DNA from: Allochromatium vinosum DSM 180
GTDB taxonomy: Bacteria > Pseudomonadota > Gammaproteobacteria > Chromatiales > Chromatiaceae
Length of the DNA: 64,000 bases
NCBI RefSeq assembly: GCF_000025485.1
Contig: NC_013851.1
Location: 673,001-737,000, forward strand
Direction of reading: 5' to 3'
Under the pieces are notes generated by a model. It made no database searches, was not told where the DNA came from, and saw only the letters and a list, made by a program, of their open reading frames with translations. The position numbers and the translations under genes are program-made. This document shows positions 39,472 through 53,584 of the stretch, piece after piece. Each line of letters starts with the position of its first letter. Within the stretch, counting starts at the first letter, position 1.

Positions 39472-39506
39472 ACCAGCGGCTCGTTGCTTTGGCGCGAGCC
39501 GCTGGT
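39472..39506 (+). promoter_or_regulatory. Second large hairpin upstream of opgG
   Basis: ACCAGCGGCTCG, 11-base loop, CGAGCCGCTGGT: a perfect twelve-base stem that ends 84 bases before the opgG ATG. It lies 24 bases after the first hairpin. With no T run it is more like a leader structure or regulator target than a terminator. Control of opgGH by medium osmolarity is known in enterobacteria; a link to this structure is speculative. Confidence 0.45.
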
Positions 39507-39590
39507 GCTTGCGCGTCTGGACCGGGTGCCACGGATTCGGCCATCATCACAGGCACTTTTGGCGTTCAATCACACTCCATCGAGAACATC

Positions 39591-41156
39591 ATGACGCTCG
39601 CTCGACTGTTCGGAATCCTGGTTATTGGATCGACGTTGGTTTCTGGCATACCACTGCGGGCGGACGACACCCCGGGTCTGGTCGAGCCGGCGCCGAGCGA
39701 GGGCGCTCCCGGCGCCTTCACCTTCGCCGCCGTGGTCCGGCGCGCCCAGGAACTGGCGACCACTGATTACCAGCCCGACCGCCCGGCGCTCCCGGACTAT
39801 CTCGCCGATCTGGACTACGACCAATATCGCGATATCCGTTTCGACCGCGACGAGAGTCTGTGGAAGGCCGAGGGGCTGCCATTCCAGATGCAGTTCTTTC
39901 CGCGCGGTTTCCTGTTCAAGGACCGGGTGACGGTCAACGTCGTCGAGGAGGGCGTCTCGCAGGTCGTACCCTTCCAGCACGATCTCTTCGACTATGGCCG
40001 CAATCAGGTTCCCGAGGAGATGCCGGCGGATCTCGGTTTCGCCGGGTTGCGTCTGCTCTATCCGGTCAACCGAGACGACATGTTCGATGAGGTGGTGGTC
40101 TTTCTGGGCGCGAGCTATTTTCGCGGTGTCTCCAAGGGCCTGAACTACGGCATCACGGCACGCGGGCTGGCGATCGACACCGGGCTTCCGACTCAGGAGG
40201 AATTCCCGATCTTCCGTGAGTTCTGGGTGTTCAAGCCCGCACCCGATGCGGTCGACATCACGGTGTTCGCCCTGCTCGACAGCGAGAGCGTCACGGGCGC
40301 CTACAGCTTCGTGATCCGTCCGGGCATCGAGACGGTGATGGACGTCAAGGCGCGGCTGTTCATGCGTCAGTCGGTCCAGAAGCTCGGGATCGCGCCGCTG
40401 ACGAGCATGTTCCTCCATGGCGAGAACACCGACCGTTTCATGGATGATTTCCGGCCCGAGGTCCACGACTCCGACGGTCTGCTGGTCGTGAACGGCACCG
40501 GCGAGCGCATCTGGCGTCCGCTGACCAATCCGCTCGGTCTGCGCGTGAGCGGTTTCGTCGCCGAGAACCCCCGGTCCTTCGGGCTGTTCCAGCGCGATCG
40601 CACCTTCGGTCATTACGAAGACCTGGAGGCGCACTATCAGAACCGCCCGAGTGCGCTCGTCGAGCCGATCGGCGACTGGGGCCGGGGTACGGTCGAACTG
40701 GTCGAGATCCCGAGTGATGCCGAGCGTTACGACAACATCGTCGCCTACTGGATGCCTGAGCGCAAACCCGAGCCGGGCGATGAGCTGAAGCTCGAATACC
40801 GCCTGCGTTTCGGTCTGGACCCCGAGGCCGGTCTGCTGGGCGGGCGCGCGGTTTCGACCCGTATCGGCGCTGCCGGCGCCGATGTCCCGGACTCCAGTCG
40901 GCGCAAGTTCGTGGTCGACTTCGCCGGCCAGTCCCTGGCCCAGATGTCGCCCGAGACCGAGGTCGAGGCCGTAGTCACCAGCACCTCGGGCGAGCTGTCC
41001 CAGCCGGTCGTGCAGTGGAATCCCAACACCCAGGGCTGGAGGCTGTTTTTCGAACTGAGACCGGATGGCCGCGAGCCGGCGGATCTGCGTGCCTTCCTGC
41101 GTCAAGGCCATGACGTGCTCAGCGAGACCTGGAGCTACAGATGGGTTCAGGAGTGA
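39591..41156 (+). CDS. opgG: Periplasmic glucan biosynthesis protein OpgG (MdoG)
   Basis: A 521-residue periplasmic protein needed for osmoregulated periplasmic glucan. The signal peptide is in residues 1-25, ending near PLRA/DD. The body is the MdoG fold: FTFAAVVRRAQELA, LDYDQYRDIRFD, LPFQMQFFPRGFLFKDRV, FLGASYFRGVSKGLNYGITARGLAID and FRPEVHDSDGL, all family signatures. The C-terminal Ig-like domain is at about 395-520. The family is now grouped with GH186 enzymes that act on beta-1,2-glucan. The next gene overlaps its end by 16 bases, followed by opgH. The chosen ATG gives a proper signal peptide; the open frame extends upstream without one. Confidence 0.95.
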   Translation: MTLARLFGILVIGSTLVSGIPLRADDTPGLVEPAPSEGAPGAFTFAAVVRRAQELATTDYQPDRPALPDYLADLDYDQYRDIRFDRDESLWKAEGLPFQMQFFPRGFLFKDRVTVNVVEEGVSQVVPFQHDLFDYGRNQVPEEMPADLGFAGLRLLYPVNRDDMFDEVVVFLGASYFRGVSKGLNYGITARGLAIDTGLPTQEEFPIFREFWVFKPAPDAVDITVFALLDSESVTGAYSFVIRPGIETVMDVKARLFMRQSVQKLGIAPLTSMFLHGENTDRFMDDFRPEVHDSDGLLVVNGTGERIWRPLTNPLGLRVSGFVAENPRSFGLFQRDRTFGHYEDLEAHYQNRPSALVEPIGDWGRGTVELVEIPSDAERYDNIVAYWMPERKPEPGDELKLEYRLRFGLDPEAGLLGGRAVSTRIGAAGADVPDSSRRKFVVDFAGQSLAQMSPETEVEAVVTSTSGELSQPVVQWNPNTQGWRLFFELRPDGREPADLRAFLRQGHDVLSETWSYRWVQE

Positions 41157-41698
41157 TCGACCGGCTCGACGTACTCGACGCGCCCGCGCCGGCCTCCTGG
41201 TCCACCCCCGAGGACCATGCGGTGGTCGATCGGCGTGTGCGGCTCTATCTCAATGCTCTGGGCGTGCAGGATCCGCACGAGACCGAGGTGCTGGTGCGCC
41301 GCGTGATCGAGCGGGTCGAGTTCCGGGCCACGCTCGGTCAACTGGGCGAGCCGCTGGAGGTCGCGATCGAGGAGACGCACCGGCTGCTCGATCGCTGGCT
41401 GATCGCCGAACTGGGGCTGGACGCCGAGCCGGACCAGCTCTCGGCGGCCCGCGCCGCCGTGCTCGGCGGTCATCTGCCGGGCTGGACGCGGCGTTGGGCC
41501 GGTCTGAGCGAGGTGTCGCTGGCTGAATCCATCCGGGCGGTCCGCTTCCAGGCGGTCCCCGAACGCGCGCCTCTGAATATGGAACCCAATCCCATTCGGC
41601 TCTGTTGCCATCGCCTGATGCGGCGTCTGCTGGCCAGAGTCGGGCGTTGGTTGGGGATTTCGGGACGGCGCCATGCTGTGCCGGAGGTTCACCCATGA
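41141..41698 (+). CDS. Unknown protein between opgG and opgH
   Basis: A 185-residue soluble protein that I do not recognise. It overlaps opgG by 16 bases and opgH by ATGA, so it is coupled to both, which argues that it is real and works with them. It is helical, rich in L, E, R and V, with no signal peptide and no membrane helix. The C-terminal 40 residues are basic with two adjacent Cys (RLCCHRLMRRLLARVGRWLG), perhaps an amphipathic membrane-binding helix. Because OpgH works in the inner membrane, a cytoplasmic accessory to glucan polymerisation is a reasonable guess. No catalytic motif is visible. Confidence 0.75.
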   Translation: MGSGVIDRLDVLDAPAPASWSTPEDHAVVDRRVRLYLNALGVQDPHETEVLVRRVIERVEFRATLGQLGEPLEVAIEETHRLLDRWLIAELGLDAEPDQLSAARAAVLGGHLPGWTRRWAGLSEVSLAESIRAVRFQAVPERAPLNMEPNPIRLCCHRLMRRLLARVGRWLGISGRRHAVPEVHP

Positions 41699-43770
41699 AC
41701 CGCTACGGCGTCTCGACCTTTGCGGCCCGCTATCTACCGCGTCCGCTCTATTTCACGCTGGTTCTGCTCACCACCGTCTTCTGCCTGTCGCTGCTGTCGT
41801 CGGCGATCCAGGACGGCGGACTCTCGACGCTCGAAATCGTGCTGCTGATCCTCTATACCATCCTGATGTTGTGGATCAGCGCCTCGTTCTGGACGGCGGC
41901 CATCGGTTTCATGGTGCTGGCGTTGCAGGGACGCTGGGGCGAGCGCGCGGCGCCCGAGCCGGCCGCATCCGCCGAGACCGGCGCCTTCAAGACCGCGCTG
42001 GTGATGCCGGTGTACAACGAAGACCCGGAGCGGGTCTTCGCCGGACTGCGCGCCATGTTCGACTCGCTGGTCGCGACCGGACACTCCGACGGGTTCGAGT
42101 TCTTCGTCCTGAGCGACACGCGCGAGCCGGACATCTGGCTCCAGGAAGAACAGCACTGGCGGCGCTGGTCCGAGGAGCTCGGCGATCGGGTGCCGCTCTT
42201 TTACCGCAATCGGGTCGAGAACACCGCGCGCAAGAGCGGCAATCTGGCCGATTTCTGCCGCGACTGGGGCGGTCGCTATCGCTACATGATCGTGCTGGAC
42301 GCCGACAGCATCATGAGCGGCGAGACCCTGGTCGAGATGGTGCGCCGCATGGAGGCCGATCGACGACTCGCCTTGATCCAGGTGCCGCCGGTGCCGGTCA
42401 ACCGCTCGTCCTTCTTCGCACGCATGCTCCAGTTCGCCGGCAGTCTCTATGGACGGCTGTTCGTCGCCGGGCTTGCGTTCTGGCAACGCGACACGGCGAA
42501 TTTCTGGGGCCACAACGCCATCATCCGGGTGCGTCCCTTCGCCGATCACTGCGGTCTGCCCAAGCTGCCGGGACGCGAACCCTTCGGCGGCGACATCCTC
42601 AGTCATGACTTCGTCGAGGCGGCGCTGCTGGCGCGCGCGGGCTGGAAGGTGCGGCTCGCACCCGATCTCGGCGGCAGTTACGAGGAGATCCCGCCGACCC
42701 TGATCGACTACGCCAAGCGCGACCGGCGCTGGTGTCAGGGCAATCTGCAACATGCGCGGCTGATCCTGGCGCAGGGCTTCAAGCCGCTGAGCCGGCTGCA
42801 TTTCGCCATGGGCGTCATGTCCTATGCCGCCTCGCCGCTGTGGCTTCTGTTCCTGATCGCGACCGGGGCCGAAGCCTATTTCAAGAGTCTGCAACAGACG
42901 GTGTATTTCTTCGGCTACAACGTCATGCCGATCTGGCCCGAGTCCTATGTGGTCGAGATGACCACGGTGCTGTGGGTGACGCTCGTGCTGCTGTTTCTGC
43001 CCAAGATCCTGGCGCTGGTTCTGCTGGCGCTCGATCGCGACGAGGCGCAGCGTTTCGGCGGTCTGCTCAAGGCGAGTCTCAGCGTGCTGATCGAGAGTCT
43101 GCTGTCGGTGCTGCTCGCGCCCGTGCTGATGCTGTTCCAGAGCAAGTTCGTGGCGGCGATCCTGTTGCGCACCAGCGTCGGCTGGCCGGCTCAGCAGCGT
43201 GGCGATCATCAGACCGGCGTGCTGGAGGCGCTGGGCGCGCATGGCGTCCATACGCTGATCGCGTTCGCGGTCGGCTATGTCGCCTATGTGCATGTGCCGG
43301 ATTTCTTCTGGTGGTTCACGCCGGTGCTCGCGGGGCTGGTGCTCTCGGTTCCGGTCTCCATCCTCACCAGCCGTACCTCGCTCGGATTGCGTTTGAAAGA
43401 GGCCGGACTCTTCCTGACGCCGGCCGAGACCGAGGAGCCGCCGGTGCTGCGTCGGCTGGAGGAACGGCTGGCCGAGTCGTCGCCTCCGATCGAGGCGCCT
43501 GCGGGGGAGCGGGCGTTCTGGACGCGGGCCATGATGAATCCAGGCGTCTACGCCCTGCACGACGCGCTGCTGCACGACGAGCCGCAGACCCGGCGGCGGC
43601 GGCACATCCTCGAAGGTCTGACCCTGCAACTCCAGGACGAGGGTGAGGATTCGCTCAGTCTGCGCGAGCAGCGGGCGTTGCTGTCGCATCGTGACGGGCT
43701 GCATTTGTTGCACACCCGGCTGTGGGCGGCGCCGACGCTGGACGCACCGCCGCCCCTCGCGAACGGATGA
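41695..43770 (+). CDS. opgH: Glucan glucosyltransferase OpgH (MdoH)
   Basis: A 691-residue inner-membrane GT2-family enzyme that builds the linear beta-1,2 backbone of periplasmic glucan from UDP-glucose and moves it to the periplasm. Helices lie at about 17-37 and 48-80. The catalytic domain has MPVYNEDPERVFAGLRAM, the DAD (VLDADSIMSG), the acceptor HD (ILSHDFVEAALL) and the RRWCQGNLQH motif (Q-x-x-R-W). Several more helices follow at about 375-590. The C-terminal cytoplasmic tail ends RLWAAPTLDAPPPLANG. GGAGG precedes the ATG. Its N-terminal cytoplasmic extension is short compared with E. coli OpgH (847 residues), so the nutrient-dependent FtsZ-inhibition region is probably missing. Confidence 0.95.
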   Translation: MNRYGVSTFAARYLPRPLYFTLVLLTTVFCLSLLSSAIQDGGLSTLEIVLLILYTILMLWISASFWTAAIGFMVLALQGRWGERAAPEPAASAETGAFKTALVMPVYNEDPERVFAGLRAMFDSLVATGHSDGFEFFVLSDTREPDIWLQEEQHWRRWSEELGDRVPLFYRNRVENTARKSGNLADFCRDWGGRYRYMIVLDADSIMSGETLVEMVRRMEADRRLALIQVPPVPVNRSSFFARMLQFAGSLYGRLFVAGLAFWQRDTANFWGHNAIIRVRPFADHCGLPKLPGREPFGGDILSHDFVEAALLARAGWKVRLAPDLGGSYEEIPPTLIDYAKRDRRWCQGNLQHARLILAQGFKPLSRLHFAMGVMSYAASPLWLLFLIATGAEAYFKSLQQTVYFFGYNVMPIWPESYVVEMTTVLWVTLVLLFLPKILALVLLALDRDEAQRFGGLLKASLSVLIESLLSVLLAPVLMLFQSKFVAAILLRTSVGWPAQQRGDHQTGVLEALGAHGVHTLIAFAVGYVAYVHVPDFFWWFTPVLAGLVLSVPVSILTSRTSLGLRLKEAGLFLTPAETEEPPVLRRLEERLAESSPPIEAPAGERAFWTRAMMNPGVYALHDALLHDEPQTRRRRHILEGLTLQLQDEGEDSLSLREQRALLSHRDGLHLLHTRLWAAPTLDAPPPLANG

Positions 43771-45079
43771 CCTCGCGATAGAAGCATGCGCTGGTCTTGG
43801 GCCGGCGCGTCCGGTCGCCGGGATCGACCTGATAGAGACCGAAGCGCTTGGAATAGCCCTCGGCCCACTCGAAGTTGTCGAGCAGCGACCAGACGCAGTA
43901 ACCGCGCAGGTCGACGCCCTGTTCGAGCGCTGTCGCGGCGGCCCGGATGTGGGCACGCAGATAGGCGACACGCCTGGGGTCTTCGACCAGCCCGTCGCGT
44001 GGCGGCGGATCGTCGAAGGCCGCGCCGTTCTCAGTGATATAGAGCGGCGGATTGGCGTAGCGGTCGCGCAGCCACAGCAGGGTTTCGGTCAGGCCCTCGG
44101 GATAGACCTCCCAGTCCATGGCCGTCAGTTCGGCGTCCGTCGGCGTGATGCGGATCGCGTCGAGCGGCGGCGCCTCGGGCGCGGCCCGGACCAGACCTCG
44201 CGAATAGTAGTTGACCCCGATGAAATCGCCCGGACAGCGGATCTTTGCCAGGGATTCGGCTGAAAACTCCGGCCAGGCCGGACCGAAGATGTCGGCCAGT
44301 TCCTCTGGATAGCGTCCGAACACGAGCGCATCCAGGAACCAGCGGTTGATGAAGGCGTCGCGCCGCCGGGCGGCCTCCAGATCCGCCGGGGACGGCGAGG
44401 CCGGATGCTGGGGTTCGAGATTGACCGCCAGCCCGATCCGGTGCCGTCCCAGGGCGCGATAGGCGGCGACAGCTTCCGCATGGGCCAGCAGCAGATGGTT
44501 CGCCACGCGCGGCGGCTCGAACAGATCCCGGTGTCCGGGGGCGAGCTGACCGTCCAGATAGCCGGGCACTGTGACCACCCAGGGTTCGTTGAGTGTGATC
44601 CAGAGCGGTACGCGATCGTCCAGGGCTCGAAAGACCGTCCCGGCATACTCGGCGAACCAGTGTGGACTGTCCGGATTGAGCCAGCCGCCGCGCTCGTGCA
44701 GGGCCACGGGCAGATCCCAGTGATAGAGCGTGGCCATCGGCTGGATGCCGTGCTCCAACAGGGCATCGACCAGACGCTCGTAGAAATCCAGTCCGCGGCT
44801 GTTGACCGCGCCCCGCCCCTCGGGCAGCACCCGTCCCCAGGCCAGGCTGAAACGGTAGGCGCTCAGCCCCAGCTCGGCCATGAGCGCCACGTCTTCCAGA
44901 GAGCGATGATAGTGATCGCAGGCTAGATCGCCGGTGTCATGGCCGGCGACCCGCCCCGGTGTGTGCGCGAAACGGTGCCAGATGCTGGGTCCGGCACCAT
45001 CGGCGAGCGGAGACCCCTCGATCTGATAGGCCGAGGTCGCCGCGCCCCAGAGGAAGTCGTCCGGAAAGGGTGCGGCCAT
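43655..45079 (-). CDS. GH1 beta-glucosidase
   Basis: A 474-residue family 1 retaining glycosidase with the acid/base Glu in WITLNEPWVVT and the nucleophile Glu in LYITENGAAFDD. The FLWGAATSAYQIEG start and the DNFEWAEGYSKRFGLYQVD end are both classic. There is no signal peptide, so it acts in the cytoplasm. The ATG at 45079 has GGAGG eight bases upstream and lies two bases after the ABC-gene stop, so the two are one transcript. Its last 38 codons or so lie antisense to the opgH 3' end, and the protein tail after YREVIRSRG looks like read-through with no family counterpart. In this setting it may hydrolyse short beta-glucans to glucose. Confidence 0.93.
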   Translation of the reverse strand: MAAPFPDDFLWGAATSAYQIEGSPLADGAGPSIWHRFAHTPGRVAGHDTGDLACDHYHRSLEDVALMAELGLSAYRFSLAWGRVLPEGRGAVNSRGLDFYERLVDALLEHGIQPMATLYHWDLPVALHERGGWLNPDSPHWFAEYAGTVFRALDDRVPLWITLNEPWVVTVPGYLDGQLAPGHRDLFEPPRVANHLLLAHAEAVAAYRALGRHRIGLAVNLEPQHPASPSPADLEAARRRDAFINRWFLDALVFGRYPEELADIFGPAWPEFSAESLAKIRCPGDFIGVNYYSRGLVRAAPEAPPLDAIRITPTDAELTAMDWEVYPEGLTETLLWLRDRYANPPLYITENGAAFDDPPPRDGLVEDPRRVAYLRAHIRAAATALEQGVDLRGYCVWSLLDNFEWAEGYSKRFGLYQVDPGDRTRRPKTSACFYREVIRSRGAAVRPASAPPTAGCATNAARHDATATPAARAD

Positions 45080-45081
45080 GG

Positions 45082-46881
45082 TCAATCCTCCACGTCATCC
45101 GAACGATTCGCCCTGTCGGTGCGTCGACGGCCACCATGGGGCGGGGATGGTTCGCGGCCCGGATCGTCGTCGGATACCGGCAGGCGCAGACGCCAGGAAC
45201 CATCGGCGGCGATTTCGAGCAGCCGGTCGTAGAAGCGCGGGTCGTCGCCCGGATCGCCCAGCGTGAAATAAGTGATCCCCTGCTGGCGTAGCAGGTTGAG
45301 CAGCTCGCCGAGCGGACATTCGCTCAGGCTGCGGCTGGGATGGTCGAGGAAGACGAAGCGCGGTGCGGCCAGCAGTACGCGCGCGAAGCTCAGTCGCTGC
45401 TGCTCGCCCAGTGACAGCAGATCGCTCCAGTTGCGCTCGGTGTCCAGACCGCCGGCCTTGTTCAGGGCCGGCGTCAGACTCAACGATTCCAGGCTGGCCA
45501 GGATCTTCCAGTCCGGCAGCCAGCGCTCCTGACAGGGACGCAGCAGCACCTCGCGCAGGGTGCCGGGCGGCACATAGGGGCGCTCCGGCAGGAAGAAGAT
45601 GACATCGTGTCCGGGATGCAGGATGCGCCCCGTGCCATGCGGCCACAGATCTGCCGTAGCCCGGAACAGCGCCTTCTCGGCCGCTTCGCTGGTCGAGCGC
45701 ACCAGCAGGCTCACGCCCGCCGGCAGCGACAGACTCAGATCCTCGATCAGGACGCGGCCATCGCGCGGCGAGTGCAGCGTCAGATGCTCGAAGGCGACGC
45801 TGCCGCACTCCTCGCAGAACTCCACGCGCGGCGCCTGTTCCGGGCGCTCCTGATCCATGGCCTCACGCAGGGCATTGAGCCGCGCGACCACGGCCGTGTA
45901 GTTCGAGATCGACTGGAACTGGGTGACGATCAGCGAGAAGGCGCCGAGCAGATGCGCGAAGGCGACCGCTGACTGAGTGATGACCCCGAACTGGGCCTCG
46001 CCCTGGATGAACAGCGGCGCGACCAGCAGCGCCGGGATGATCTGGATCAGATAGTTGTAGCCGGTGGTGAAGAAACCGAGATTGCGATTGACCTCGATGA
46101 TGCGCTGGAAGTTGGCCGTCAACTGGTTCAGGCGGTCGCGCAGCCGGGCGTTCAACCGTTCCTCGCGCCGCAGCAGGGCCACGGATTCGGCGTTCTCGCG
46201 TACATGGACCAGACGCGCGCGGAAGTTGGCCTCGCGGTCGAGCTGATCGTAATTGAGCCTGACCAGCGGTTTGCCGAGATAGATGGTCAGGATCGAGCCA
46301 AGGATGGAGTAGGCGACCGCGACCACGAACAACAGCGGGCTGATGGTCCAGAGCACGCCGGAGAAGGCGACCACCGTGAAGCTTGCATTGAGGAACATCA
46401 GGGTGAAGGAGAGGGTGGTCGCCGTGAGCGCGCGGATGTCCTCGGAGATGCGCTGATCGGGGTTGGGCAGCTCGCCGGCTGAATGCAGTCTGAAATAGGT
46501 CCGCTCGTCGAGATAGCGGTCGATGGCGCGCTCGGTGAGCCACTTGCGCCACAGCAGCCCCAGGCGTTCCTCGGTGTAGCGGTAGATGACGGCGACCACG
46601 GTCGAGATGCCCAGGACGAAGATGAACAGCAGGGCGTAATGGACGAATCCGCCCATGTCCTGGTTCTCGATCGCGGTCATGAAGTCGCGGTTGACGTAGC
46701 TGTTGATGACGTTCAGTCCATTGATCGCGAACAGGAACAGGATGAGCAGCACGAACAGCGCCTTGGCCCTGCCGCCGACCTCTGAGGCGCCGAGCTGTTG
46801 CAGCATGCGCACGAAGCGGTTCCAGATGGCCGGTGTGATCGGCACCTTGAGGGCGTTCAGGAGAGACCAGGGGAAGCGCAT
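45082..46881 (-). CDS. SbmA/ABCD-type ABC protein with degenerate ATPase domain
   Basis: A 599-residue ABC half-transporter of the ABC_membrane_2/SbmA_BacA class. Membrane helices fill residues about 30-320. They include the class signatures LLWRKWLTERAIDRYLDERTYFRL and NPDQRISEDIRAL. The nucleotide-binding domain at about 390-570 keeps the C-loop (LLSLGEQQRLSFARVLL) but has lost the rest. The P-loop position reads RSTSEAAEKAL instead of G-x-x-G-x-G-K-S. Walker B reads FVFLDHPSRSLSE, with His for the catalytic Glu. The switch His is Asp in TLGDPGDD. It is therefore unlikely to hydrolyse ATP by itself. True SbmA proteins lack this domain and run on protons. It is cotranscribed with the GH1 glucosidase. 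Cargo is unknown; a glucan fragment or peptide is possible. Confidence 0.86.
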   Translation of the reverse strand: MRFPWSLLNALKVPITPAIWNRFVRMLQQLGASEVGGRAKALFVLLILFLFAINGLNVINSYVNRDFMTAIENQDMGGFVHYALLFIFVLGISTVVAVIYRYTEERLGLLWRKWLTERAIDRYLDERTYFRLHSAGELPNPDQRISEDIRALTATTLSFTLMFLNASFTVVAFSGVLWTISPLLFVVAVAYSILGSILTIYLGKPLVRLNYDQLDREANFRARLVHVRENAESVALLRREERLNARLRDRLNQLTANFQRIIEVNRNLGFFTTGYNYLIQIIPALLVAPLFIQGEAQFGVITQSAVAFAHLLGAFSLIVTQFQSISNYTAVVARLNALREAMDQERPEQAPRVEFCEECGSVAFEHLTLHSPRDGRVLIEDLSLSLPAGVSLLVRSTSEAAEKALFRATADLWPHGTGRILHPGHDVIFFLPERPYVPPGTLREVLLRPCQERWLPDWKILASLESLSLTPALNKAGGLDTERNWSDLLSLGEQQRLSFARVLLAAPRFVFLDHPSRSLSECPLGELLNLLRQQGITYFTLGDPGDDPRFYDRLLEIAADGSWRLRLPVSDDDPGREPSPPHGGRRRTDRANRSDDVED

Positions 46882-47069: not shown

Positions 47070-50000
47070 ATGCACATCCTGGATCTGGACGATTTCAGCG
47101 ACCTCTCTGTCTGGTCCAGCGTCGTTTCGGGGCAGGCGCGTCTCGATCTGGCCGCCGACGCCGGGCCGGAAGGCGAGGGCGGGGCCATGCGGCTGGACTT
47201 CGATTTCGGCGAGGGCGGCGGCTTCGTGGTCGCGCGCCGGACAGTGCGTCTGACACTACCGGACAGCTTCGCGATTCTGCTCCGGGTACGCGCCGAAGCG
47301 CCTGCCAATGCCTTCGAGTTCAAACTGATCGACCCGAGCGGCGAGAACGTCTGGCGCTTTCGCGATGAATCCTTCGACTTCGATTCGGACTGGCGCGCGC
47401 TGCGGATCGGCAGCCGTGCGATGGCCTTTGGCTGGGGGCCGGCCGGTGGCGGCGCACCGACACAGGTCGGCGCTGTCGAGATCGCCATCACGGCTGGGCC
47501 GGGTGGGCGCGGGTGTCTGTGGATCGCTGATCTGCGGATCGAGGATCGCACGCCATCCCAACCGCCCGCGATCCGCGCTTCCAGCGAACGGCCGGGGCAG
47601 GGCGCGGCCTGTATCCTGGACGGCCGATCCGACACGGCCTGGCGTCCCGCGCAACGGCCGGCCTGGGTCGAGCTGGATTGCCATGAACCGTGCGATTACA
47701 GCGCCCTGATGCTGCACTGGGACTCGCCTGAGCCGCGCACCTTCGAGATCCTGGCGGGCGACGACGGTGCGCACTGGACCCGTCTTCAGGCCGTCTCCAG
47801 TGCGCGCGGCCAGCGCAACACGGTCTATCTGCCCGAGGGGTGCTCGCGCTTCCTGCGGCTCGCTCTGGCGGGCGGGGAGGGCGATCCGGTTCCGGGTCTG
47901 GTCGGCCTGGAACTGAAGCCCGAGACCTTTGCCCGCTCCATTGAGGACTTCGTTCACCGTCTGGCCGAGCAGGCACCGCGCGGCCGGTATCCGCGCTGGC
48001 TCTATCGCGAACAGACCTACTGGACGCCGATCGATATCCCCGACGGCACGGTGCCGGCGCTGTTCAACGAAGAGGGGCTGATCGAGGTCTGGCGTGCCGG
48101 TCCGGCGATCGAGCCGTTGCTGAGCGTCCAGGGCGAGCGGCTGACCTGGGCCGACTGCACCGTCGAGCCGTCGCTGCTCCAGCCGCCGCTGCCGATTCCA
48201 CGCTCGACCTGGAGTACGGAGGGACGGCGCTTCGAGACGCTCGCCTTTGCCCACGGAGCGCCGGGGCGGGTCTGGCTCTTCATCCGCTATCGGCTGGAGA
48301 ACCTGGGTACGGCTCCGCTGAACGCGACGCTCCAGATCGCGATCCGTCCCGTGCAGGTTTCACCGCCCTGGCAGGGTTACAGGGACATCGGCGGTGTGGC
48401 GCGGATCGACCGGATCGCCTGGGAGCAGGGCGACGTGCGGGTCGATGGCCGGCTGGCTCTGGTTCCGCTCTCGACGCCGACCGGCTTCGGGGCCATGGCC
48501 TTCGACACCGAGGCGATCGATGAACCCGTTGCCGCCGTCGCTTCGTCCAAGACCGCTGCGGTCGAGGATGGACTCGGTCTGGCCTCGGCGGCGCTGCGCT
48601 TCGATCTGGACGTGGCGCCGGGTGCGCATCGGGAGATCTGGCTCGCCGCTCCGCTCGGTGAGCACGAGGACGCCCATCCCCGCGAGCTGGCCGGTGCGGC
48701 CGGTGCGGTCGAGTCGCACCTGAAGGCGGCGCTCGACCAATGGTCGCAGCGACTCGGGGCCGTCGAGCTGCACCTGCCGGAGATCGCGCGCGACGCTTGG
48801 GAGGGCTGCCAGGGGGCGCTCGCCCATATCCTGATCAATCGCGACGGTCCCGCGCTCCAGCCCGGACCGCGCCGTTATACGCGCTCCTGGATACGCGATG
48901 GCGCGACCATGGGAGCGGCGCTGCGGCGATTCGGTCTCAAGGGCGAGGCCGTCGACTTCATCGACTGGTATGCCGGGTTCCAGGCCGAGGACGGCAAGGT
49001 GCCCTGCTGCGTCGACCGTCAGGGCGTCGACTGGCTGCCCGAGCACGACAGCCCTGGTCAGTTCATCTTCGCCGTCGCCGATGCCTGGCGTTTCGGGGCG
49101 GATCGGGCGCGTCTGGAGGCGCTGTGGCCGGCGGTGTGTCGGGCCGTCGATTATCTGGAACGATTGCGGACCGAGCGGCTGACGCCGCCCTATCAGGAAC
49201 CCGAGCGTCGCGCCTGTCTGGGGCTGCTGCCGGAGTCGGTGAGTCATGAGGGCTATCTGGCCCATCCGGTCCATGCCTATTGGGACGACTTCTGGGCGCT
49301 GCGCGGACTCAAGGATGCCGCTGAGCTGGCCGAGGCGCTGGGCGACGGCGAGCGTGCCGGGCACTTCGCCCGTCTGCGCGATGCGTTCAGTGCGGCCCTC
49401 TATGTCTCCCTGGATCGGGTCATGGAGGAACGCGGCATCGATTTCCTGCCCGGATCGGTCGAATGGGCCGACCACGACCCCACGGCGACCGCCAATGCCC
49501 TGACCCTGATCGACGAGTCCCACCGGTTGCCGGTAGCGGCCATGCAGCGCACTTTCGATCAGTTCATGCAGCGATTCCGCGCTGTCCATGGGTCGGACCC
49601 TGTGCCCTGGACCAACTACAGTGCCTATGAAATCCGCATCGCGGGCGCCCTGATCCGGCTCGGACGGCGCGCGGAGGCGCATGAGCTGCTGCGGTGCTAT
49701 CTGGCCGAGCGCCGGCCGGCAGTCTGGAACCAGTGGCCCGAGATCACCTGGCGCGATCCCAGGTCGCCCGGTCATCAGGGCGATCTGCCGCATGCCTGGA
49801 TCGGGGCCGAATACTGTCTGGTGTTCCGCGATCTCTTCGTTTACGAGCGCGGGGCGGATCGCTCGCTGGTGATCGGCGCCGGTCTGCCGGTCGAGTGGCT
49901 GGCGGCGGGTGAGATCCGGGTGCGTCGCCTGCCGACGTCCTACGGCCGGCTCGATCTGGACATCGCGCGCTTCGACGGCGGCGCGGTGCAGATGCGGGTT

Positions 50001-50159
50001 GGCGGTGAGTTGCGGCTTCCGCCCGGTGGTCTGTGGGTGGCACCGCCGCTGCCGGGTCCGCTGACGCGCGTCGAGATCGACGGCGAGCCGAGCCGCGACT
50101 TCAATGCCACCGAGGCGCATCTAACGACGCTTCCGGCTGAGATCGTACTGGTCGGTTGA
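47070..50159 (+). CDS. Discoidin (F5/8 type C) plus six-hairpin glycosidase-like protein
   Basis: A 1029-residue cytoplasmic-looking protein without a signal peptide. An N-terminal beta-sandwich at about 1-150 is followed by a discoidin/CBM32-like domain at about 155-290 (IRASSERPGQGAACILDGRSDTAW, WVELDCHEPCDYSALML). A beta-linker domain lies at about 290-560. The C-terminal half is an alpha/alpha six-hairpin glycosidase module at about 570-960, with RRYTRSWIRDGATMGAALRRFG, an acidic W-x-D element in GSVEWADHDPTATANAL, and NQWPEITW. The latter family includes amylo-alpha-1,6-glucosidase- and GH94/GH65-like clans. The catalytic residues cannot be assigned with certainty. It overlaps the GH94 frame and shares its transcript, pointing to a joint role on a beta-glucan. 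Confidence 0.74.
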   Translation: MHILDLDDFSDLSVWSSVVSGQARLDLAADAGPEGEGGAMRLDFDFGEGGGFVVARRTVRLTLPDSFAILLRVRAEAPANAFEFKLIDPSGENVWRFRDESFDFDSDWRALRIGSRAMAFGWGPAGGGAPTQVGAVEIAITAGPGGRGCLWIADLRIEDRTPSQPPAIRASSERPGQGAACILDGRSDTAWRPAQRPAWVELDCHEPCDYSALMLHWDSPEPRTFEILAGDDGAHWTRLQAVSSARGQRNTVYLPEGCSRFLRLALAGGEGDPVPGLVGLELKPETFARSIEDFVHRLAEQAPRGRYPRWLYREQTYWTPIDIPDGTVPALFNEEGLIEVWRAGPAIEPLLSVQGERLTWADCTVEPSLLQPPLPIPRSTWSTEGRRFETLAFAHGAPGRVWLFIRYRLENLGTAPLNATLQIAIRPVQVSPPWQGYRDIGGVARIDRIAWEQGDVRVDGRLALVPLSTPTGFGAMAFDTEAIDEPVAAVASSKTAAVEDGLGLASAALRFDLDVAPGAHREIWLAAPLGEHEDAHPRELAGAAGAVESHLKAALDQWSQRLGAVELHLPEIARDAWEGCQGALAHILINRDGPALQPGPRRYTRSWIRDGATMGAALRRFGLKGEAVDFIDWYAGFQAEDGKVPCCVDRQGVDWLPEHDSPGQFIFAVADAWRFGADRARLEALWPAVCRAVDYLERLRTERLTPPYQEPERRACLGLLPESVSHEGYLAHPVHAYWDDFWALRGLKDAAELAEALGDGERAGHFARLRDAFSAALYVSLDRVMEERGIDFLPGSVEWADHDPTATANALTLIDESHRLPVAAMQRTFDQFMQRFRAVHGSDPVPWTNYSAYEIRIAGALIRLGRRAEAHELLRCYLAERRPAVWNQWPEITWRDPRSPGHQGDLPHAWIGAEYCLVFRDLFVYERGADRSLVIGAGLPVEWLAAGEIRVRRLPTSYGRLDLDIARFDGGAVQMRVGGELRLPPGGLWVAPPLPGPLTRVEIDGEPSRDFNATEAHLTTLPAEIVLVG

Positions 50160-50182
50160 GCCACGAGAACAGAGACATCGAC

Positions 50183-53100
50183 ATGCAACAGTTTTTCGAT
50201 CCGCACGGCCCCGAGTCGAGTCTGCATCGACTGAGCAACGGTTCGCTCGAAGCCCTGATCTCGGAGTCAGGCGCCGGTCAACTGCGCTGGAACGGACTGG
50301 CGCTCACGCGCTGGCATGCCGATCCGGTCGAGGACGATCTTGGGAGTCTGCTCTATGTCCGGGATCTGGATTCGGGCGCGGTCTGGTCGCTTGGCTATCA
50401 GCCGACGCGCGTCGAGCCGCGTGTCTATCGCGTCGGCTGTCAGGATGACCGTTTCCGGCTCGAACGCGAGGATCAGGGCATCGCCCTGCGGCTCGATCTG
50501 AGTCTGGATGCGACCAGGGATCTGGAGCGGCGATGTGTGCGGCTGACCAATGTCTCGGACCGGGCGCGCCGGATCGAGCTGACCAGCTATCTGGAGGTGG
50601 TGCTCTTTCCCTCCGAGGCCGATGCGGCCCATCCGGCGTTCGCCAAACTCTTCGTTCAGACCGAGCGGGATGCGTCTACGGGGGCGCTGCTCGCCCGCCG
50701 TCGTCCGCGCGGTCAGGGTGAGTCCTGGCCCTGGATGATCCATGCGCTGCTCGGCGCCGAGGCCGTGCAATGGGAGACCGATCGCGCCCGTTTCATCGGA
50801 CGAGGCCGGAATCGAACGCGTCCGGCCGCACTGTTCGGTTCGGCCCCGGAGGCCGGTTCGCTGTCCGGCCGTCTGGGGAATGTGCTCGACCCCATCCTCT
50901 CACTGCGTACAGTGATTGAGTTGCAACCCGGTGCCGGTAGCGAGCTGACCTGGATCACGGGCGCGGCGCCCGACCGCGCGGCGGCGCTGGCGCTTCTGGA
51001 TGGCGAGTCGCTGAAGACATCCGTATCGGCCTCATCGCTGTCCACTGACGATGAGGCGCCGGCCAGTCGCGACGCCGACGACGAACTGGCCGAATCGACT
51101 CAGGATCTACGCTTCTTCAACGGCTACGGCGGTTTCTCCGCAGACGGGCGTCGCTATGAAATCCAGTTGCCGTATCAAGGATCAGCCGGCCATCGCCGCC
51201 CGCCCCAGCCCTGGATCAATGTCATCGCCAATCCGGATTTCGGCTGTCTGGTGAGTGAGTCCGGCGCGGGCTATACCTGGTCGCGCAACAGTCAGGCCAA
51301 CCGGCTCACCCCCTGGTTCAACGATCCGGTCGGCGATCCGCACGGCGAGGCGCTCTATGTGCGCGACGAGGCGACCGGCGAATCCTGGTCGCCGCTGCCC
51401 GGACCGCGTCCGGCGCCCGCCGGCTATCGGGTGACGCATGGGCTGGGCTTCACGCGCTTTGCGCTCCAGTACGCCGGGCTGGAGCAGGAAACGACCCTCT
51501 TCGTGCCGCGCCATGATCCGCTGCGTGTCCTCAGGCTGCGCCTGACCAACCCCGGCGCCGGCACACGGCGCCTGTCGCTGTTGGGCTATCAGCGTCTGGT
51601 CATGGGCCAGCAGCCGTCGTCGGGCAGCGCCATCGTCACGGCGATCGAGCCTGCGTCGGGGCTGTTGCGCGCGATCAATCCAGAAGCGGGCGATTTTGCC
51701 GGCGGCATCGTCTTCGCCACGGCGATCGTCTCGGGCGGCGCGGTCATCGAGCGCGATTTCACCACCGACCGCCTGTCGGTCATCGGCCGTCATCGCGATC
51801 TCGCCGACCCCGTGGCGCTGGAGCCGGGCCGACGGCTCGACGGGCGTCAGGGCGAAGTGCGTGATCCCTGTTTCGCGCAGCGGCTTCGGGTGAGTCTCGA
51901 ACCGGGCGCGACCCTGGTCTGCGACTGGCTGCTCGGCGAGGCGATGAGCGAGACGCAACTGGGCGATCTGCTGCAAGGCTACGCCGATCCGGCGGCCATC
52001 GGCGCGGCCTTCGATGAAGCCGTCGCATTCTGGGACGATCTGGTCTCGCACGTCCAGGTCGAGACGCCCGAACCGGCCATCGATCTGATGCTCAACGGCT
52101 GGTTGCTCTATCAGAACCTCGGCTGTCGGATCTGGGCGCGTTCGGCTTTCTATCAGTCCGGCGGGGCTTACGGCTATCGTGACCAACTTCAGGACGCCGC
52201 CGCGCTCGCCGCCATCCGCCCGGACATCACGCGCGCCCAGATCCTGCTGCACGCGGCGCATCAGTTCGTCGAGGGCGACGTGCTGCACTGGTGGCATCCG
52301 GCGCCGCTCGAACGCGGACTGCGCACCCGCTTCTCGGACGATCTGCTCTGGTTGCCCTTTGTCCTCGCACACTATGTCCGGATGACGGGCGATGTCGGCC
52401 TGCTGGACGAGATTCAGCCCTATCTGGCCGCGCCCGAGCTGGCGCCGGGGCAGGATGAAAACTATCTGACCCCAGTGCTCAGCGGCGAGTCGGGCGATCT
52501 CTACGACCATGGCTGTCGCGCCATCGACCGTTCGCTGACGCGCGGTGTGCATGGTCTGCCGCTCATGGGCACGGGCGACTGGAACGACGGCATGAACCGG
52601 ATCGGGCGTGCCGGACACGGCGAGAGCGTCTGGATGGGGTTTTTTCTGTACCGGGTGCTGAGCGACTTTCTGCCGTTGTGCGAGCGGCGCGGCGATCAGG
52701 CGCGCCTCGACCGCTATCGTGCCTGTCAAGCCGAGCTGGAACGCGCCCTGGAGACCAGCGGTTGGGATGGCGACTGGTACCGTCGCGCCTACTATGACGA
52801 CGGCACGCCGCTCGGCTCGGCGGCCGACGCGGAATGCCGCATCGACGCCCTGGCGCAGGCCTGGGCGGCACTCTCAGGCGCGGTGCCGCGCGCGCGCGCC
52901 GAGCAGGCGCTGGATAGCCTGGAACGCCATCTGGCCAGCGAGCCGGACCGGCTGATCCGACTGCTGACACCGCCCTTCGTCGACACCCCGCACGATCCCG
53001 GTTACATCAAGGGCTATGTCGCCGGTGTGCGCGAGAACGGCGGCCAATACACCCATGCCGCCTGCTGGGCGGTCGCGGCCATGGCCGAACTGGGACGGCA

Positions 53101-53584
53101 CGAGCAGGCCGCGCCCTGGCTGGCGCGGCTCAGTCCGGTCAGCCATACCCGCACATCCGCAGACGTCCGGCGCTACCGGCTCGAACCCTATGTGGTGGCC
53201 GCCGACGTCTATGGCGAACCGCCGCACGTTGGGCGCGGCGGCTGGAGCTGGTATACGGGTTCGGCGGGCTGGTGGTATCGGGTCGCGCTCGAATCCGTCC
53301 TGGGTCTGCGGATCGAGAACGGCCGCGAGCTGGTCATCCGGCCCTGCATCCCGGCGAGCTGGCCGGGCTTTCGGCTCCGTTACCGTCTGCCGGACGGCGT
53401 GACCGAATGTGAGATCCAGGTGGATAATGGCGACGGCGGCGGGGTCGTCATCGCGGCCAGCCTCGACGACAGGCCTCTGACCATCCAGTCGGGCGCGGCG
53501 CGTGCCGTGCTGCCCGTCGGTCCCGGCCGCCATTCCATCCGGGTGAAGCTCGGTGCCTCGCCCGTTTCCGCTCCAACTCCATAA
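50183..53584 (+). CDS. GH94-family phosphorylase, likely 1,2-beta-oligoglucan type
   Basis: An 1133-residue protein resembling stand-alone GH94 enzymes and the C-terminal half of cyclic beta-1,2-glucan synthase (NdvB). Two related beta-sandwich modules, at about 1-330 and 340-640, share motifs such as GSLEALISESGAGQLRWNG / GCLVSESGAGYTWSRNSQAN and LYVRD. The alpha/alpha barrel follows with AYGYRDQLQDAAAL, the catalytic-Asp motif GTGDWNDGMNRIG (799-802 D-W-N-D), and phosphate-site segments IKGYVAGVRENGGQYTHAA and GGWSWYTGSAGWWYRV. GH94 enzymes split beta-glucosidic links with phosphate to give glucose 1-phosphate. Length near 1100 residues matches 1,2-beta-oligoglucan phosphorylases better than cellobiose phosphorylase (about 800). 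Start: the ATG at 50183; a TTG at 50156 overlaps the upstream gene. Confidence 0.83.
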   Translation: MQQFFDPHGPESSLHRLSNGSLEALISESGAGQLRWNGLALTRWHADPVEDDLGSLLYVRDLDSGAVWSLGYQPTRVEPRVYRVGCQDDRFRLEREDQGIALRLDLSLDATRDLERRCVRLTNVSDRARRIELTSYLEVVLFPSEADAAHPAFAKLFVQTERDASTGALLARRRPRGQGESWPWMIHALLGAEAVQWETDRARFIGRGRNRTRPAALFGSAPEAGSLSGRLGNVLDPILSLRTVIELQPGAGSELTWITGAAPDRAAALALLDGESLKTSVSASSLSTDDEAPASRDADDELAESTQDLRFFNGYGGFSADGRRYEIQLPYQGSAGHRRPPQPWINVIANPDFGCLVSESGAGYTWSRNSQANRLTPWFNDPVGDPHGEALYVRDEATGESWSPLPGPRPAPAGYRVTHGLGFTRFALQYAGLEQETTLFVPRHDPLRVLRLRLTNPGAGTRRLSLLGYQRLVMGQQPSSGSAIVTAIEPASGLLRAINPEAGDFAGGIVFATAIVSGGAVIERDFTTDRLSVIGRHRDLADPVALEPGRRLDGRQGEVRDPCFAQRLRVSLEPGATLVCDWLLGEAMSETQLGDLLQGYADPAAIGAAFDEAVAFWDDLVSHVQVETPEPAIDLMLNGWLLYQNLGCRIWARSAFYQSGGAYGYRDQLQDAAALAAIRPDITRAQILLHAAHQFVEGDVLHWWHPAPLERGLRTRFSDDLLWLPFVLAHYVRMTGDVGLLDEIQPYLAAPELAPGQDENYLTPVLSGESGDLYDHGCRAIDRSLTRGVHGLPLMGTGDWNDGMNRIGRAGHGESVWMGFFLYRVLSDFLPLCERRGDQARLDRYRACQAELERALETSGWDGDWYRRAYYDDGTPLGSAADAECRIDALAQAWAALSGAVPRARAEQALDSLERHLASEPDRLIRLLTPPFVDTPHDPGYIKGYVAGVRENGGQYTHAACWAVAAMAELGRHEQAAPWLARLSPVSHTRTSADVRRYRLEPYVVAADVYGEPPHVGRGGWSWYTGSAGWWYRVALESVLGLRIENGRELVIRPCIPASWPGFRLRYRLPDGVTECEIQVDNGDGGGVVIAASLDDRPLTIQSGAARAVLPVGPGRHSIRVKLGASPVSAPTP

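Follow-up and report, generated by a model that had tools for sequence, protein, structure and literature searches.

How can an ABC half-transporter work when the ATPase domain attached to it lacks the residues for ATP hydrolysis? The question is raised by the gene of P0001 in the window, i.e., the whole stretch of 64,000 nucleotides of Allochromatium vinosum DSM 180 analysed here. By its motifs, P0001 is an ABCD/YddA-type (PF06472) half-transporter with an ATPase domain that lacks residues needed for hydrolysis. How an ATP pump becomes an ATP-free transporter is an open question. For SbmA, passages of PMC13316013 speculate on a derivation from a YddA-type membrane part that was separated from its ATPase domain, and they agree with the statement, made in a sequence-only reading of the window, that the SbmA/BacA family works without such a domain. 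P0001 belongs to a widespread, maintained family of pseudo-ATPase transporters that points to another route than SbmA: the domain stays, the catalytic site dies and selection moves to the Q-loop side. No description of a pseudo-ATPase PF06472 family was found in the titles, the abstract starts and some passages of the open-licence literature.

Sequence set and scope

The homologues were obtained mainly from a scan with peptides derived from P0001, with 80 of 95 loci taken, so that the clade of P0001-like proteins with a degenerate ATPase domain (the dead clade) is over-sampled. Several loci came from near-identical or MAG sources, and all counts are thus counts of sequences, not of independent events. 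The alignments comprised 88 distinct sequences including P0001, later 128. Motifs were counted in 77 dead-clade members with a readable ATPase domain and in 35 ATP-type relatives, referred to as intact. Five fragments (L149, L152, L156, L157, L163) and four partial copies (L084, L095, L111, L128) were left out of the tree; these rows except L084, plus the SbmA-type rows L165 and L169, were left out of the motif counts. In the survey of the family of the window organism, a match with E < 1e-200 was taken as membership in the main dead clade and was present in 14 of 58 genomes, the window genome included. The latter has 3,669,074 bases in 3 contigs and is listed as 100 % complete. Copies L051, L055 and L057, on three contigs of a MAG titled Methyloversatilis, were very close to the copies L099, L054 and L053 of Methylocaldum sp. 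14B; because of these near-matches the MAG is probably mislabelled or mixed.

A half-transporter with a degenerate ATPase domain

The gene of P0001, its domains and motifs, and the neighbouring genes are listed in Table 1. Pfam scores, taken on a longer ORF version of 639 aa, were 148 bits for ABC_membrane_2 (PF06472, family cut-off 24.4), 56.1 bits for SbmA_BacA and, below the cut-off of 25, 22.3 bits for ABC_tran; they bear out the SbmA/ABCD-type membrane part named in the sequence-only reading. In an AF2 model of P0001 based on 75 sequences, the 10-residue means of pLDDT were 92-98 over residues 352-566; confidence in the membrane domain was low at about residues 161-190 and 301-330. The top Foldseek match of the whole model was Rv1819c, and VIA-align gave Z values of 25.8 for ABCD1, 23.9 for ABCD4, 23.7 for ABCD3 and 21.8 for Rv1819c. 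The C-terminal ABC ATPase fold is predicted to be retained in P0001.

Table 1 Position of P0001, its domains and motifs, and neighbouring genes in the window
Feature	Position	Strand	Basis
Pseudo-ATPase ABC half-transporter P0001, 599 aa, ATG at 46881	45082..46881	-	ORF, Pfam, alignment, AF2
Six-helix type IV membrane domain, residues 20-345	45847..46824	-	PF06472 148 bits; AF2 helices
R101...E104-E105 on the long TM2 helix, clade-specific charges	46567..46581	-	Alignment
D215 on the long TM4 helix	46237..46239	-	Alignment
Nucleotide-binding-domain fold (predicted as kept), residues 352-566	45184..45828	-	AF2; full-length matches Rv1819c, ABCD1/3/4
Degenerate Walker A STSEAAEK, residues 396-403 (P-loop stretch RSTSEAAEK)	45673..45696	-	Alignment
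Q-loop segment FLPERP with E433 in place of Gln; the NBD stretch around it is the best conserved in the dead clade	45577..45594	-	Alignment, conservation scan
Signature motif LSLGEQQ (LSLGEQQRL), intact in P0001	45397..45417	-	Alignment
Walker B FVFLDH, Asp present, catalytic Glu to His	45340..45357	-	Alignment
H-loop His to Asp (D543), context TLGDPG	45253..45255	-	Alignment
GH1 beta-glucosidase-family gene, ATG 45079, 2 nt past the transporter stop	43655..45085	-	Pfam
Divergent gene, 1029 aa, F5/8 type C domain and predicted glycoside hydrolase/phosphorylase-like fold, family unnamed	47070..50159	+	Pfam, structure model
GH94 phosphorylase-type protein	50156..53584	+	Best solved match cyclic beta-1,2-glucan synthase
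MdoG/OpgG, periplasmic glucan biosynthesis	39489..41156	+	Sequence match
MdoH/OpgH glucosyltransferase	41605..43770	+	Pfam

The wrecked P-loop, the exchange of the Walker B Glu for His and that of the switch His for Asp, all described from the letters of P0001, were confirmed there and proved to extend beyond it. Gly-6, the Walker A glycine in front of the lysine, was missing from all 77 dead-clade members, as were the catalytic Glu of Walker B and the His of the H-loop; of the 35 ATP-type relatives, 35, 35 and 31 have these residues. Alignment of the homologues at Walker A, a check proposed with the sequence-only reading, thus gave a replaced Gly-6 in 77/77. P0001 has STSEAAEK where GxxGxGK[ST] is the Walker A pattern of ATP-driven ABC transporters. 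The Q-loop Gln was found in 2/77 (Glu in 72/77) versus 34/35. Other positions were more variable in the dead clade. The Walker A Lys column held Lys in 38 of the 77 sequences, Arg in 20 and Glu, the residue of P0001, in 15 (Lys in 35/35 relatives); the Walker B Asp was present in 64/77 versus 35/35, the Walker A Ser/Thr for magnesium in 17/77, and P-loop forms such as GPNxxAKx persist in many members. Judged by the lysine and the Walker B aspartate, nucleotide binding would be possible in some dead-clade members. The C-loop had been called intact, which is correct for P0001 but does not hold as a family trait: the signature Gly occurs in 44/77 dead-clade members versus 35/35 relatives, the signature Ser in 69/77. 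Two residues absent from the intact proteins are typical of the dead clade, A404 (76/77) and E433 (72/77). The motif losses of P0001 recurred in orthologues (76-91 % identity) from Chromatiaceae whose genomes were sequenced separately; because of this recurrence and the zero counts among the 77 members, the losses are beyond chance or sequencing error. By the alignment, they are a family trait of the whole sampled clade, which covers several phyla.

Origin of the dead proteins

When only the membrane domain was used for the tree (118 rows), so that ATPase motifs could not drive the grouping, 76 dead proteins formed one branch with an SH-aLRT support of 100. Its nearest neighbours were four intact proteins (support 92), from Myxococcota and from a delta-proteobacterial MAG, followed by seven intact ones of Cyanobacteriota and Thermodesulfobacteriota; together with these 11 proteins the dead clade forms a group with full support. 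Three SbmA-type rows were on a separate branch with a length of 1.3, and the dead clade did not group with them. A careful tree of 49 rows recovered the dead branch (25 of the 76 rows, 100/100) and the same sister group (93/90). The main dead clade appears to have one origin. The proposal that P0001 is an intermediate towards SbmA fails as ancestry, with the dead clade nested among 11 intact proteins away from the SbmA rows and only 2/6 positions of the SbmA glutamate ladder acidic.

A second small dead group (L017, L018, L146, L150) was placed elsewhere in the tree. Its members have a gap at the Walker A Lys column and no H-loop His, and keep the Walker B Glu. A single clade for all dead proteins was rejected by the AU test with p 0.001, a value to be read with the group having been named after the first tree and with long branches involved. 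From the separate placement and this rejection, the ATPase domain probably died at least twice. L181 of genome G353 combines a near-intact P-loop (GRSGSGKR) with Gly for the Walker B Glu, Glu for the Q-loop Gln and Asp for the H-loop His; it is perhaps a third, younger loss.

Maintenance of the domain

Comparison of the P0001 gene with those of relatives in the family gave dN/dS values of 0.10-0.21 for the nucleotide-binding domain (NBD) and 0.11-0.20 for the membrane domain (TMD) in 12 of 13 comparisons; one gave no value. Among close relatives the dead domain is under purifying selection. A sequencing error or a recent pseudogene was ruled out by these NBD values and by the changes common to separate genomes.

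Conservation is distributed differently over the NBD in the two sets. The ten catalytic positions had 2.42 bits in the dead proteins, where the NBD mean was 2.41, versus 4.16 bits and a mean of 2.22 in the intact proteins. The Q-loop segment 429-443 had 3.53 bits in dead and 2.95 bits in intact proteins, the membrane domain means of 3.08 and 2.15 bits; since the sets differ in spread, they are better compared by the ranks inside each set. Among 200 NBD segments of 15 residues, those starting at 430 and 429 ranked 1 and 2 in the dead proteins; in the intact proteins the segment at 429 ranked 18, and signature and Walker A segments were on top. By these profiles, the constraint in the dead NBD is shifted from the ATP site to the Q-loop side. 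In ABC transporters, the Q-loop faces the membrane domain.

Over larger distances another pattern emerged. The NBD/TMD identity ratio was 0.70-0.78 for dead pairs at 53-69 % TMD identity, and in the small intact set about 1.0 for pairs at 44-48 % and 0.85 for three pairs at 57 %. For closer pairs the ratio was 0.94-0.96 in the dead proteins (80-90 %) and 0.83-0.86 in the intact ones (84-89 %), again from the small set. Distant dead proteins have diverged more in the NBD than in the TMD, which counts against a reading of the domain as maintained.

Search for a partner

P0001 was the only PF06472 protein found in a whole-genome search of the window genome, which encodes six other half-transporters of the PF00664 type, none within the window. 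We covered 42 genomes with a dead copy: the window genome, 13 relatives, 25 genomes behind loci, and G138, G179 and G248 from a class survey. A PF06472 protein with intact Walker A was present in 15 of the 42 and absent from 27, the window genome included, with the absences among the 25 genomes behind loci weaker than that in the window genome, as these genomes have no completeness figure, include many MAGs and were given a loose first look. The 15 partner candidates include L181 in G353, itself partly degenerate. Some methanotroph genomes hold several dead copies. Genome G338, behind locus L059 (Methylotetracoccus oryzae), has six PF06472 proteins (L171, L199, L200, L201, L202, L203), of which five are dead; the remaining one has an intact P-loop. 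The partnership in an asymmetric heterodimer, suggested earlier as the alternative to an SbmA intermediate, is not supported as a general answer, given the missing intact PF06472 partner in 27/42 genomes, although 15/42 have one; the search for an intact paralogue recommended with it yielded in the window genome no second PF06472 protein, only the six PF00664-type proteins as candidate partners.

Charged residues of the membrane domain

SbmA is described in passages of PMC13316013 as carrying a ladder of six glutamates and as having neither an ATPase domain nor coupling helices. Two of the six ladder positions are acidic in the dead clade: the counterpart of E193 is E147 (E in 56, D in 18 of 74 sequences) and that of E276 is E217 (74/74). 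Both acids also occur in intact relatives (10/12 and 11/12) and in YddA. The other four positions hold Leu, Asn, Arg and Ser/Ala/Thr/Asn. According to the same passages of PMC13316013, YddA is without only E203 and E287 of the ladder glutamates; the present alignment has an Asn in YddA at the E269 column, and the alignment of this column is thus uncertain. At the YddA glutamate two residues past the E269 column, no fixed acid was found in the dead clade among the sequences listed. An SbmA-type proton-coupling ladder was ruled out for the dead clade, four of the six glutamates being absent, with the E269 column uncertain.

Charges specific to the clade were located elsewhere in the long helices. 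Position 215, two residues from E217, is Asp in 77/77 dead-clade members versus Arg or Lys in 30/35 intact proteins. R101 was present in 73/77, E104 in 75/77 and E105 in 72/77 dead-clade members; the commonest residues in the 35 intact proteins were S (9) and Y (7) at position 101, R (11) at 104, and Q (16) and K (8) at 105. Further clade-specific polar residues in long helices are Q280 (74/77) and Q321 (75/77). The AF2 helix boundaries, read with the usual type IV topology, would place D215, R101 and E105 close to the gate, on helix extensions at the cytoplasmic side.

Genomic context and candidate substrate

The transporter gene is surrounded by genes for carbohydrate-active proteins (Table 1). 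The GH1 gene was found in 21 of 23 Chromatiaceae dead loci, and its best solved match is a general beta-glucosidase. The 3' ends of the convergent GH1 and mdoH frames share 116 bp (43655-43770). Members of the family of the divergent gene at 47070 occur in 27/69 dead loci. A sequence search at E 0.01 gave no solved relative of the 47070 protein, and only by Foldseek did its model resemble GH94, GH15-type and GH63-type enzymes. The GH94 protein matched residues 2017-2778 of the cyclic beta-1,2-glucan synthase chain with 818 bits, a match that does not prove the linkage specificity.

Within up to about 8 kb on each side, a SOGP, GH94 or 47070-family gene was present in 31/69 dead loci (14/23 in Chromatiaceae, 17/46 in others from several phyla) versus 0/11 intact loci, a weak control, since dead loci served to select the neighbour families and the comparison covered just 11 intact loci. 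Such a gene was absent from this range in 29/46 non-Chromatiaceae and 9/23 Chromatiaceae dead loci, and one substrate may not fit all dead-clade members. Likely neighbour genes were chosen by a composition score and 20 ORFs were run on Pfam, which confirmed SOGP domains at L064, L084, L086 and L111; of the remaining 16 neighbours, most had no sugar link. Neighbour-clustering counts were set aside because of many shadow ORFs on the opposite strand of GC-rich DNA. In a simple hydropathy scan, the N-termini of four GH94, six SOGP and one GH1 protein had no strong hydrophobic stretch and thus look cytoplasmic; MdoG has one. The 47070-family member L053 has a signal-like N-terminus. Passages of PMC12369401 report that in other bacteria GH94 SOGP and GH1 enzymes act on beta-1,2-gluco-oligosaccharides, that an ABC binding protein binds these, and that OpgG and OpgD of E. 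coli are beta-1,2-glucanases. The gene neighbourhood, taken together with the enzymes and the binding protein in these passages, suggests an import of beta-glucan oligosaccharides for cytoplasmic phosphorolysis.

Proposed mechanism and alternatives

We consider P0001 an ATP-independent, homodimeric oligosaccharide carrier with ATPase domains kept as structural or gating parts, at a probability of about 0.5. The two six-helix membrane domains of the homodimer would form an alternating-access cavity. The two attached ATPase-fold domains would be unable to hydrolyse ATP and would probably not use it; docked via the Q-loop and the coupling helices, they may serve as a structural clamp or gate. Either the gradient of the substrate itself or an ion gradient would drive transport, and breakdown in the cytoplasm would pull the substrate inward. 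The likeliest substrate would be a linear, probably beta-1,2-linked, beta-glucan oligosaccharide from osmoregulated periplasmic glucan, which the GH94 enzyme would phosphorolyse and the GH1 enzyme hydrolyse after import. ATP independence, the homodimeric state, substrate, direction and driving force are what we infer here.

Some of the residues described above would also suit other modes of action. A proton-coupled secondary transporter like SbmA, with a different acidic cluster (E104/E105, E147, D215 and E217) on the cytoplasmic extensions of TM2-TM4, is unlikely. It would account for the strict Asp at 215 in place of the Arg or Lys of intact proteins, for its closeness to the E276 counterpart E217 and for the clade-specific acids E104 and E105, and SbmA itself, for which an origin from a YddA-type ABC protein is proposed, runs on protons (passages of PMC13316013). 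However, four of the six ladder positions are non-acidic, the two acidic ones are shared with ATP-type relatives, and R101 beside E105 could equally reflect rewired salt bridges. Improbable is an asymmetric heterodimer, in which the dead half would join an ATP-competent half-transporter and complete the ATP site of the partner with its kept signature: 27 of the 42 genomes, among them the complete window genome, are without a Walker-A-intact PF06472 protein, no other PF06472 or PF00664 match lies within the window, and the signature Gly is gone in 33/77 members, whereas the frequent signature Ser, the 15 genomes with an intact PF06472 protein and the six PF00664-type half-transporters of the window genome speak for it.

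A role in nucleotide sensing, with the domain binding nucleotide or another ligand without hydrolysis and thereby gating a facilitator, is quite improbable. The GPNxxAKx-like forms, the Walker A Lys in 38 and the Walker B Asp in 64 of the 77 members and the strong conservation of the Q-loop stretch are consistent with such a sensor, but Gly-6 is replaced throughout, the magnesium Ser/Thr is kept in only 17/77, and P0001 itself has Glu in the Lys column. Highly improbable, finally, is a decaying relic en route to domain loss. The fall of ATP-site conservation to the domain average and the NBD identity lagging behind that of the TMD over long distances would fit decay; purifying selection on the NBD close to that on the TMD among close relatives, the clade-wide residues A404 and E433 absent from intact proteins, and the retention of the domain in several phyla argue against it.

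The carrier with retained ATPase domains leads to a wider proposal, which is tentative and in its full extent rather doubtful: a widespread ABC family may have passed from primary to secondary or facilitated transport with the ATPase domain kept as a gate, D215, E104/E105 and R101 near the cytoplasmic gate may have taken over energy coupling for the import of periplasmic beta-glucan oligosaccharides, and the ATP site would have been lost at least twice, apart from SbmA. With the dead clade, the transition away from an ATP pump can be tested directly in bacteria that grow in culture; the clade may also provide an importer for periplasmic glucan turnover.

Comparison with known transporters

In heterodimeric ABC exporters with one degenerate site, e.g., TmrAB, TM287/288, BmrCD and Rv1273c/72c, the partner chain is largely intact and encoded alongside. 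The dead clade shares with them the degeneration of ATP-site residues in one chain. It differs in the 27/42 dead-copy genomes without a Walker-A-intact PF06472 protein and in the changes of the Walker A Gly, the Glu, the H-loop His and the Q-loop Gln. A separate sugar-binding subunit distinguishes the ABC importers for beta-1,2-gluco-oligosaccharides of Listeria innocua and Streptomyces griseus from a single half-transporter of the P0001 type, and they are of another ABC class. Their loci resemble that of P0001 in a transporter gene beside GH94 or GH1 (passages of PMC12369401).

With half-transporters of the YddA/BclA/Rv1819c type, the dead clade has in common the membrane fold, the TMD-NBD layout, a signature of the LSLGEQQ type and, by alignment, the coupling-helix regions that SbmA lacks. 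In these transporters (35 relatives), Walker A and the catalytic Glu of Walker B are conserved and the H-loop His is present in most, whereas the dead clade lost these and exchanged the Q-loop Gln for Glu; transport by BclA requires ATP hydrolysis according to passages of PMC12003926. The SbmA/BacA (SLiPT) peptide importers have a related membrane domain, seen in the SbmA_BacA score of P0001, and for SbmA a descent from a YddA-type ABC protein and a proton-driven, ATP-independent mode are put forward in passages of PMC13316013. In contrast to them, the dead clade keeps the ATPase domain and is without four of the six ladder glutamates. The dead clade stands as an analogue of SbmA: probably a separate exit from the use of ATP, with the domain kept.
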